Origin: Motilimonas sp. E26
Lineage (GTDB): Bacteria > Pseudomonadota > Gammaproteobacteria > Enterobacterales > CBDFNC01
Reading direction: 5' to 3'
Length of the DNA: 64,000 nucleotides
Assembly: GCF_021278025.1 (NCBI RefSeq)
Contig: NZ_JAIBHJ010000003.1
Coordinates: forward strand, 156,887 to 220,886
Shown here: piece by piece, positions 14,112 through 26,849 of the stretch
Layout of the letters: each line of letters starts with the position of its first letter
Numbering within the stretch: the stretch's first letter is position 1
The notes under the pieces: model-generated
What the model was told of the DNA's origin: nothing
Databases searched by the model: none
Seen by the model: only the letters and a program-made list of their open reading frames with translations
Made by a program: the position numbers and the translations under genes

Positions 14112-14196
14112 TGGTGCGGAAGGAGAGACTTGAACTCTCACACCTTGCGGCACTAGAACCTAAATCTAGCGTGTCTACCAATTTCACCACTTCCGC
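14112..14196 (-). tRNA. tRNA-Leu (anticodon UAG), copy 2 of cluster
   Basis: An 85-nt cloverleaf with encoded CCA folds on the minus strand. The acceptor stem pairs GCGGAAG with CTTCCGC, the anticodon loop TTTAGGT gives UAG, and a long variable arm marks it as a class II leucine tRNA. It looks identical to the copy at 14610-14694 and is the last tRNA of the six-gene transcript. It closely resembles E. coli leuW. Confidence 0.97.
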
Positions 14197-14211
14197 AGTG
14201 CAAAGAAAGAA

Positions 14212-14288
14212 TGGTGGCTACACCGAGATTTGAACTTGGGACCCCATCATTATGAGTGATGTGCTCTAACCAGCTGAGCTATGTAGCC
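14212..14288 (-). tRNA. tRNA-Met (elongator, anticodon CAU), copy 2
   Basis: A 77-nt tRNA with encoded CCA. The acceptor pairs GGCTACA with TGTAGCC, and the anticodon loop CTCATAA reads CAU. The fully paired acceptor end and the similarity to E. coli metT indicate the elongator, not the initiator. The T stem has one A-C mismatch that E. coli metT shares, so it is not a sign of decay. Confidence 0.96.
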
Positions 14289-14331
14289 ATTCTTTTTTGC
14301 TTTAGTCTGAAAGTGAACTCTCAGAATAAAT

Positions 14332-14406
14332 TGGCAGGGATATGAGGATTTGAACCTCAGAATGCCGAGATCAAAACCCGGTGCCTTACCGCTTGGCGAT
14401 ATCCCT
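14332..14406 (-). tRNA. tRNA-Gln (anticodon UUG), copy 2
   Basis: A 75-nt tRNA with encoded CCA; the anticodon loop TTTTGAT reads UUG and the acceptor pairs AGGGATA with TATCCCT. The D arm GCCAAGCGGTAAGGC is the usual bacterial tRNA-Gln form. It is identical by eye to the copy at 14451-14525. Confidence 0.96.
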
Positions 14407-14450
14407 GTTGTAACTTTTTGATCAATGATATTCATCATTCAATCAGAATT

Positions 14451-14525
14451 TGGCAGGGATATGAGGATTTGAACCTCAGAATGCCGAGATCAAAACCCGG
14501 TGCCTTACCGCTTGGCGATATCCCT
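14451..14525 (-). tRNA. tRNA-Gln (anticodon UUG), copy 1
   Basis: A 75-nt tRNA with encoded CCA and the same sequence as the downstream copy, 44 bp away. Both read CAA (and CAG by wobble); no CUG-anticodon glutamine tRNA is present in the cluster, in contrast to E. coli where glnV/glnX follow metU. Confidence 0.96.
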
Positions 14526-14609
14526 ATTTTTTGAGTTTTACGTGTAATAATCTCACACGGATCAAAGTTATTTACTTTGATGTTTATTAAAAGCTTAGCT
14601 TCTAATAAA

Positions 14610-14694
14610 TGGTGCGGAAGGAGAGACTTGAACTCTCACACCTTGCGGCACTAGAACCTAAATCTAGCGTGTCTACCAATTTCACCACTTCCGC
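14610..14694 (-). tRNA. tRNA-Leu (anticodon UAG), copy 1
   Basis: An 85-nt class II tRNA with encoded CCA, the same sequence as the copy at 14112-14196. It lies 30 bp downstream of the first tRNA-Met, so the Met-Leu pair is present twice around the two Gln genes. Confidence 0.97.
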
Positions 14695-14724
14695 ATCTGT
14701 CTTTTCAGTTGAACTAAAAAGAAA

Positions 14725-14801
14725 TGGTGGCTACACCGAGATTTGAACTTGGGACCCCATCATTATGAGTGATGTGCTCTAACCAGCTGAGCTATGTAGC
14801 C
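14725..14801 (-). tRNA. tRNA-Met (elongator, anticodon CAU), copy 1
   Basis: A 77-nt tRNA with encoded CCA, first gene of the cluster on the minus strand and about 42 bp downstream of the predicted transcription start. Sequence is the same as the copy at 14212-14288. Confidence 0.96.
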
Positions 14802-24686: not shown

Positions 24687-25541
<855 letters not shown>

Positions 25542-25568
25542 GTCGGTTGGCTTGAGAGCTCTTTAATA

Positions 25569-25591
25569 GGCTGCCTAGTGCAGCCTTTTTT
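25569..25591 (+). terminator. Rho-independent terminator after kdsA
   Basis: GGCTGC and GCAGCC pair around a five-base loop, followed by six T on the plus strand, about 28 bp after the kdsA stop. Confidence 0.9.
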
Positions 25592-25617
25592 ATTGTCACT
25601 CGGTAAAAAAGATCCAT

Positions 25618-25847
25618 AAAAAAAACGCCACCTAGGTAGGCAGCGTTTAACTGTAGCTAAACAGAAGAAGGCTAAATTACCGGCATTGGCCACGTCATAA
25701 TATAACCTTTCATAGAATGACCTATGAGTGCAAACACAACATTGCAAACCATTAGCTATAGTAAGGTATTTTGTAAAATATTTGTTACAAAATACAAGGC
25801 GAGAGCATAGAGAAAAACACTGCTTTTTACATATAGCCTTTGTTGCG
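25618..25847 (-). ncRNA. gcvB: GcvB-like small regulatory RNA (candidate)
   Basis: An RNA of about 230 nt can be read on the minus strand, divergent from gcvA exactly where E. coli encodes GcvB. It contains GTTGTGTTTGCA (25729-25740), the G/U-rich R1 seed of known GcvB RNAs that pairs with amino-acid transporter mRNAs. A 5' stem (ACAAAGGC with GCCTTGT), a perfect 9-bp hairpin (ATTTTGTAA with TTACAAAAT) and a 10-bp terminator stem at 25623-25648 followed by eight T give the multi-hairpin layout of the family. A promoter with consensus-like boxes fits the 5' end. No gene on this strand would otherwise need the terminator. The R2-like segment CTTCTTCTGTTTAGC is weaker. Exact ends are estimates. 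Confidence 0.75.
25623..25648 (-). terminator. Terminator of the GcvB-like RNA
   Basis: A 26-nt hairpin with ten pairs (two of them G-T) and a six-base loop is followed on the minus strand by eight T (25618-25625, overlapping the stem base). On the plus strand it lacks a T tract, so it works only for minus-strand transcription. Confidence 0.85.
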
Positions 25848-25853
25848 TAAAGA

Positions 25854-25882
25854 AATATAGTCTTTCGCTGGTGATACAACAA
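25854..25882 (-). promoter_or_regulatory. Putative promoter of the GcvB-like RNA
   Basis: On the minus strand TTGTTG (25877-25882) and TATATT (25854-25859) are spaced by 17 bp; the start would be near 25847. Confidence 0.6.
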
Positions 25883-25891
25883 ACGACAATT

Positions 25892-25919
25892 TATAATATT
25901 TGGCATTAGTTTTTCTAAT
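25892..25919 (+). promoter_or_regulatory. gcvA -10 box and GcvA-type dyad
   Basis: A perfect TATAAT (25892-25897) points towards gcvA. Just downstream, ATTAG and CTAAT form a dyad with a 5-bp spacer (25905-25919). CTAAT is the half-site described for E. coli GcvA, and a dyad over the transcript start would suit autorepression. No good -35 box was seen, so the promoter may need an activator. Confidence 0.5.
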
Positions 25920-25928
25920 GGAATGCGG

Positions 25929-26849
25929 ATGTTTAATCGATTACCGCCACTCAATGCCCTGAAAACCTTTGAGTCGGCTGCTCGTCACCTGAGTTTTACC
26001 CGTGCTGCCAATGAGTTATTTGTCACTCAGGCTGCGGTTAGTCATCAAATAAAGGCATTAGAAACGCACTTAGGGCTAAAGTTGTTTCAACGCCGTAACC
26101 GTGCCTTGCGCTTGACCGAAGAAGGGCAAAGTTACTTTTTAGACCTCAAGGAAATTTTCTTAAGTTTAGGTAATGCTACCGAAAAATTATTGGCACGAAC
26201 GGCGACGGGCTCTCTTACTGTAAGCTTACAGCCGAGCTTTGCCATACAATGGCTGGTGCCTAGGCTCGTAAAATTCAGTGAACAACACCCTGAGATTGAT
26301 GTCAGGATAAAAGCTGTGGATGAAGATGAAGGTTCACTGCGTGAAGGAGTGGACTTAGCTATCTATTATGGCCGCGGTCATTGGCCTAACTTACGTTGCC
26401 ATAAGTTACATGCAGAGTACTTGCTACCACTGTGCTCACCGGCCTTATTACAAGGTAAAAAAAAGCTCGAGACATTAGCGGATTTAAGCCAGCACACTTT
26501 ATTACATGATTCGTCACGCAAAGAATGGAAAACCTGGATGAAACAGGTGGGAGTAAATTTCCCAAATGTGAATCAAGGGCCGATTTTTAGTCACTCATCT
26601 ATGGTGTTGCAAGCTGCTATTCACGGACAGGGGATTGCGCTTGGACACAACGTATTAGCCAAGCCTGAGCTTGATGCTGGGCGTTTAGTGTGCCCATTCA
26701 GTGAAGTTTTAGTGAGTAGGAAATGCCATTATTTGGTGTGTGAAGAAAGCCAAGCAGAATTAGGAAAAGTGGCCGCCTTTCGTGACTGGATGATCAATCT
26801 GGTTGAGCAAGAAGAAAAAGAATTAGACGGTATTATTGAAACGCAGTGA
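25929..26849 (+). CDS. gcvA: LysR-family glycine-cleavage regulator GcvA
   Basis: GcvA controls the glycine cleavage operon and the small RNA gene gcvB. The 306-residue protein has an N-terminal winged helix (LSFTRAANELFVTQAAVSHQIKALE is split by motif: recognition helix about residues 31-52) and a LysR substrate domain from about residue 90. Segments SHSSMVLQAAIHGQG and LVCPFSEVLVS align closely with E. coli GcvA. I chose the second ATG (25929), which has GGA at correct spacing, over the one at 25923. Downstream ygdD and rlmM are its conserved neighbours in E. coli. Confidence 0.94.
   Translation: MFNRLPPLNALKTFESAARHLSFTRAANELFVTQAAVSHQIKALETHLGLKLFQRRNRALRLTEEGQSYFLDLKEIFLSLGNATEKLLARTATGSLTVSLQPSFAIQWLVPRLVKFSEQHPEIDVRIKAVDEDEGSLREGVDLAIYYGRGHWPNLRCHKLHAEYLLPLCSPALLQGKKKLETLADLSQHTLLHDSSRKEWKTWMKQVGVNFPNVNQGPIFSHSSMVLQAAIHGQGIALGHNVLAKPELDAGRLVCPFSEVLVSRKCHYLVCEESQAELGKVAAFRDWMINLVEQEEKELDGIIETQ

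Follow-up and report, generated by a model that had tools for sequence, protein, structure and literature searches.

The minus strand between kdsA and gcvA in Motilimonas sp. E26 (25617-25848 of the window, i.e. the whole 64,000-nucleotide stretch of DNA that was analysed) encodes a GcvB small RNA, ordinary in kind and real; sequence, homology, seed, promoter pattern, terminator, structure and conservation all bear on the identification. The whole explanation, in which this RNA would be activated by GcvA and its R1 seed would block translation of transporter and metabolic mRNAs, is given a probability of roughly 0.93. A well-studied regulatory RNA, known from gut bacteria for turning down the genes of amino-acid uptake, is thereby extended to a genus of marine bacteria in which the Rfam model can only just detect it. 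A literature search, with most subscription journals outside its reach, turned up no account of GcvB in Motilimonas, and the accessible part of one Motilimonas genome paper mentions neither GcvB nor a small RNA (PMC13182010).

Rfam at the gathering threshold reported six tRNAs only over the window and did not list GcvB. At a relaxed threshold the GcvB covariance model (RF00022) was the best Rfam match of a 1.5-kb stretch, covering all 204 model positions (25808-25617) with 41.7 bits and an E value of 2.1e-7, 0.3 bits under the gathering score of 42 bits. The covariance-model search proposed as a check of the original prediction thus gave a full-length match, and a scan of the whole genome found it to be the only one (E 1.5e-7). 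The corresponding RNAs of M. cestriensis and M. eburnea scored 42.6 and 43.3 bits, both over the cut-off, and in this strain the RNA is divergent enough to score just below the naming cut-off. An order-wide scan, with stricter filters that lose weak matches, found GcvB at E <=0.001 in 90 of 295 genomes and over the cut-off in 72; its best 21 loci scored at least 118 bits, against the 41.7 bits of the window. The RNA of the window therefore belongs to the low-scoring end of the family and does not fall outside it, and of the two possibilities suggested, an extension of the family or a divergent member, the second was right.

The source genome is Motilimonas-like, its GcvA sharing 96% identity with the M. 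cestriensis protein (L032) and 86% with the M. eburnea one (L033). The order along the window is kdsA, the gap, gcvA, an alpha/beta hydrolase, a DUF423 protein and rlmM, and the minus strand of the kdsA-gcvA gap holds, in order, a palindrome, a promoter, a structured RNA and lastly a terminator whose end lies at ~25617 (Table 1). The predicted position beside gcvA was borne out, with GcvA over its family cut-off, on the opposite strand, and the spacer common to both genes. Since the GcvA profile begins at residue 3, the likely start of gcvA is 25929. Elsewhere in the window a tRNA cluster was observed at 14112-14801 (Leu, Met, Gln, Gln, Leu, Met), in which each kind occurs twice and which looks like a duplicated block.

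Table 1. Features of the gcvB locus, in window coordinates, and genes carrying candidate R1 target sites
Feature	Position	Strand	Remarks
gcvB, predicted GcvB small RNA, ~232 nt	25617..25848	-	Rfam RF00022 match 25617-25808; 5' end from conserved -10
gcvB promoter TTGTTG-17-TATATT	25854..25882	-	pattern at 38/38 seed-bearing gcvA loci vs 2/41 others
Palindrome ATTAGTTTTTCTAAT, candidate GcvA operator	25905..25919		exact or near copy in same place at other gcvA loci
R1 seed TGTTGTGTTTGCA, 13 nt, G/U-rich	25729..25741	-	sole exact copy in window
Stem-loop 1, 11 pairs	25766..25795	-	centroid fold; varying pair 25794-25767 remains paired
Intrinsic terminator of gcvB	25623..25648	-	11-pair stem and T-run
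gcvA, LysR-type regulator, divergent from gcvB	25923..26849	+	NCBIfam PRK11139, 460 bits, cut-off 288
kdsA, convergent neighbour downstream of gcvB	24696..25541	+	NCBIfam KDO8P synthase, over cut-off
Candidate target: SNF-family sodium symporter			15-nt perfect pairing with R1, TGCAAACACAACATT
Candidate target: branched-chain amino-acid carrier (livcs, BrnQ type)			
Candidate target: Na+/H+-antiporter-family permease			
Candidate target: GH18 chitinase			
Candidate target: phosphoenolpyruvate carboxylase (Ppc)			

The promoter has its -35 at 25882-25877 and its -10 at 25859-25854, separated by 17 bp. A simple consensus scan found no promoter where 2.8 were expected, because the -35 is poor. 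Comparison of the window with 78 further gcvA loci, 38 of the total with the seed and 41 without, revealed TTGNNN-17-[TC]A[TC]NNT correctly placed at every seed-bearing locus and at two of the seed-less ones (Fisher p 1.6e-20, related species not being independent). The proposed promoter with 17-bp spacing was thus upheld despite the empty consensus scan. With the start placed from the -10, the predicted transcript would run from 25848 to 25617, and its 232 nt come close to the 230 nt anticipated. Just past the -10 the motif CGCA (window 25843-25848) recurs across genera and could pair with R1; CGCAAC was exact in 8 of the 38 loci, had one mismatch in 20 and was not found in 10. The recurring CGCA may simply be the start site.

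The minus-strand terminator that had been predicted is present, and kdsA is served by a separate terminator-like site on the plus strand (25568-25586). The scan gave three such terminators against 1.7 expected in shuffles, which is not significant alone, and three of the four varying pairs of the stem stay paired in M. eburnea. GcvA binds CTAAT, and the palindrome beside gcvA is, from its sequence, likely to be the GcvA operator. As a genome-wide pattern the palindrome showed no enrichment (18 rows versus 22 control rows, G000).

The R1-like seed was confirmed as an exact 13-mer. Matches with up to two mismatches numbered four in the window against 3.9 expected, so that only the exact copy is telling. 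The exact seed was found in the window, M. cestriensis, M. eburnea, Celerinatantimonas, Alginatibacterium and all 20 Vibrio/Photobacterium loci, including genera in which most of the RNA, judged by eye, aligns poorly. There were two mismatches in Moritella (3 loci) and three in Aeromonas (10 loci, classed as seed-bearing nonetheless), located at the 3' end of the seed. Among 80 gcvA loci those of Shewanella, Ferrimonas, Rheinheimera, Oceanimonas and Zobellella had, over the 700 bases searched, no seed within three mismatches, the exceptions being 3-mismatch matches in L063, L066, L076 and L107 that were judged to be chance, and these four loci were counted as seed-less; L044 and L055, neither with a seed, were left out of the element and promoter counts. 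Within the genus the four invariant runs of at least 15 nt among three Motilimonas include one of 24 nt that precedes the terminator, and the longest, 36 nt (25764-25729), has the seed at its end. This is weak evidence because the mean column identity is 94%. Taken with the exact seed in other genera, it is the opposite of a seed that drifts while its surroundings are kept, the outcome that was to have counted against the prediction.

Folding gave z-scores of -4.4 for the 192-nt Rfam segment and -3.5 for the 232-nt transcript. Ten pairs of the centroid fold vary among the three Motilimonas, of which eight are paired in all three, one of them through a change on both sides, and two break in M. 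eburnea. In the lowest-energy fold of the 232-nt form the seed is paired with the 5' end of the same RNA. This pairing is not part of the centroid fold, and mean openness is higher in R1 than in the remainder (0.58 versus 0.38).

Other explanations of the gap were weighed against a functional GcvB. That it is only the 3' region of kdsA and the leader of gcvA, with seed, hairpins and terminator arising by chance, would agree with the empty consensus scan and with a terminator count near expectation, but it is very improbable given the full-length Rfam match at 2.1e-7, the seed and promoter kept across genera and the paired changes within helices. Somewhat less improbable, though still poorly favoured, is a degenerate gcvB that has lost its function; the low Rfam score and the missing R2 and gcvT (see below) would be expected of such a relic, whereas seed, promoter and helices are kept in three species with GcvA differing by up to 14%. 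A small protein gene on the minus strand is the least credible of the three. An open frame of 156 aa does exist (25484-25954), but it starts with TTG, has no Pfam match and is broken in M. eburnea; the longest stop-to-stop frame over it falls from 152 codons in the window to 124 in M. cestriensis and 49 in M. eburnea, within the stretch examined. It was rejected as a gene, having no Pfam match and not being kept open in M. eburnea.

The GcvB RNA of Motilimonas resembles those of E. coli, Salmonella and Yersinia (RF00022) in being divergent from gcvA, in its exact R1 core with a stem-loop ahead of it, in its own terminator and in the full-length match to the model; it differs from them in that R2, R3 and, in the genus, gcvT were not found. 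R2 was tested as CACTTCCTGTA, taken from the Rfam consensus line, and occurred with up to two mismatches in 51 of 68 sequences, namely all 30 of the top-scoring Rfam loci (a choice biased towards canonical forms), 20/20 from Vibrio/Photobacterium and that of Celerinatantimonas. The other 17, with three or four mismatches, were scored as missing it and comprised Motilimonas (3/3, including the window), Aeromonas (10/10), Moritella (3/3) and Alginatibacterium (1/1). In the window the best match to R2 had 3 mismatches in 11, the estimated chance level, and the best match to R3, an element of enteric members only, had 4 in 11. The missing R2 had gone unremarked in the original prediction. The accessible part of a study of V. 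alginolyticus describes R1 and R2 as shared by every GcvB RNA, reports R3 to be absent across Vibrionaceae and allows that use of R2 is perhaps limited to cycA (PMC9409037). Vibrio GcvB shares with the window R1, the palindrome, a promoter with a 17-bp spacer and, on the same partial source, the absence of R3, but all 20 Vibrio/Photobacterium loci keep the R2 that is missing from the window. The distance from -10 to R1 is 112 nt in the window compared with 64-71 nt in Vibrio/Photobacterium and 114 nt in Alginatibacterium.

The gcvA-linked loci of Aeromonas and Moritella are similar to the window in place, promoter, near palindrome, R1 core TGTTGTGTTT and want of R2, and differ at the seed ends, which are of TTCTT type in Aeromonas and TTGTT in Moritella. 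One locus of each was scanned (L034 and L067) and gave no Rfam match at E 0.5, which suggests that GcvB in these two genera goes unseen by the standard model. R1-like, R2-less GcvB candidates were noted upstream of gcvA in Aeromonas L034-L040, L042, L045 and L050 and in Moritella L067, L068 and L070.

The gcvT family (TIGR00528) was over its cut-off in none of four Motilimonas genomes and in 10 of 14 control genomes, E. coli among them. The weak match in this genome (19.9 bits, L286:1420-2400) is YgfZ, two congeners also have weak matches, and the accessible part of the genome paper holds nothing on glycine or gcvT (PMC13182010). As gcvT was not found in the four genomes, GcvA and GcvB may have become uncoupled from glycine cleavage. 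A hint as to which parts are indispensable comes from R1 and the promoter having stayed, with R2, R3 and apparently gcvT missing; the lack of R2 and of gcvT deserves to be followed up. In G057, the fourth genome of the genus, strict filters gave no GcvB match, and a close GcvA was likewise not found: the best match there is 33% identical, compared with 86-100% for the best match in each of the others. The co-loss of GcvA and GcvB is an anecdote from one genome, and G057 offers a natural comparison for the decay of small RNA target sites.

GcvA together with glycine activates gcvB in E. coli, GcvA together with GcvR represses it, and Yersinia gcvB behaved likewise in E. coli hosts, according to the accessible part of one report (PMC1557403). 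R1 of GcvB is described, in the available portions of two others, as conserved, unstructured and G/U-rich, with CA-rich repeats in most targets (PMC3879156, PMC3536696). In Motilimonas transcription, control by GcvA, binding by Hfq and every target are what we infer, as follows. GcvA would bind the palindrome that lies next to the gcvA start codon and switch on the divergent gcvB promoter; the RNA of ~232 nt would end at its own terminator and probably be bound by Hfq; and the G/U-rich seed would pair with sequences resembling CACAACA, close to the start codons of mRNAs for transporters and metabolic proteins, and block their translation, so that uptake of amino acids and peptides would be lowered when amino acids are plentiful. 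An hfq gene is present in the genome, and hfq, GcvA, palindrome, promoter, seed, terminator and candidate sites fit an E. coli-type mechanism.

Candidate targets were sought as the R1-complement 9-mer AACACAACA lying 2-25 nt before an ATG anywhere in the genome. The 25 matches exceeded the 11 of a reversed control, but a control of the same composition gave 46 and the raw-count enrichment was dropped; only sites heading a real gene were therefore counted. Five did so, and these are candidates by sequence. In four of the five genes no in-frame start precedes the site; the chitinase does have upstream in-frame starts and was counted on its signal-peptide-like beginning. None of the 46 rows of the same-composition control (three at one place; all read as loci) headed a real gene (Fisher p 0.004 with the chitinase and 0.013 without it), the unclear cases L267, with two upstream in-frame starts, and L273, whose frame is still open where its stretch stops, being uncounted. 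Among congeners the site was carried by the leaders of 4 in 14 matches in G037, 1 in 20 in G012 (a second SNF symporter) and none at 20 places in G057 (23 pattern rows, all 20 places read). A further G012 site (L197) lies near a gene start and was uncounted, the likely start being upstream of it.

Conservation of individual sites varied. At the first SNF site G037 shows a single G-U change, and in G012 the site is weaker. For the second SNF symporter, ACACAACAT or AACAACATT was seen in the leader in each of the three genomes other than G057, which has neither. An SNF leader of G057, the congener with no GcvB match, still pairs at -18.4 kcal/mol. In the BrnQ leader CACACAACA is kept in G012 and missing in G057, and the pairing of this leader in the present genome is no better than that of an average one (25/47 as strong). 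GcvB of V. alginolyticus lowers BrnQ by proteomics, according to the part of that study available (PMC9409037), an independent parallel to the BrnQ site here.

A tentative reading, rather less probable than not, is that an R1-only GcvB paired with GcvA has been detached from glycine cleavage and would act as a free-standing switch for amino-acid plenty (targets SNF symporters and perhaps chitinase and Ppc), that this RNA and GcvA would be lost together, whereupon CACAACA target sites would fade, as G057 hints, and that the R2-less form would be the usual one in Aeromonas and Moritella, unseen by Rfam. An unlikely alternative to the main explanation is that the regulon has moved and that the chief targets of the R1-only homolog lie in carbon and chitin metabolism (chitinase, Ppc) and not in amino-acid uptake. 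The failure to find R2, the chitinase and Ppc leaders with a site both here and in the near relative G037, and the chitin degradation reported in the accessible part of the Motilimonas paper (PMC13182010) would suit a moved regulon. However, the sites in the SNF symporters and BrnQ are as well supported as those of chitinase and Ppc, and the latter two are absent from the pattern matches of G012.

Lastly, one ortholog group of family-5 solute-binding proteins was kept (L117, L122 and L123). In this genome AACAACAACATTGGAG precedes the start codon and the leader pairs at -19.4 kcal/mol, a strength reached by 2 of 47 window leaders; the G037 ortholog (L122) reaches no NCBIfam cut-off. It was also observed that in G012 (L117:1055-1323) the leader of the family-5 binding protein together with its CA-rich site is tandemly repeated, with 2.2 copies of a 124-bp unit.
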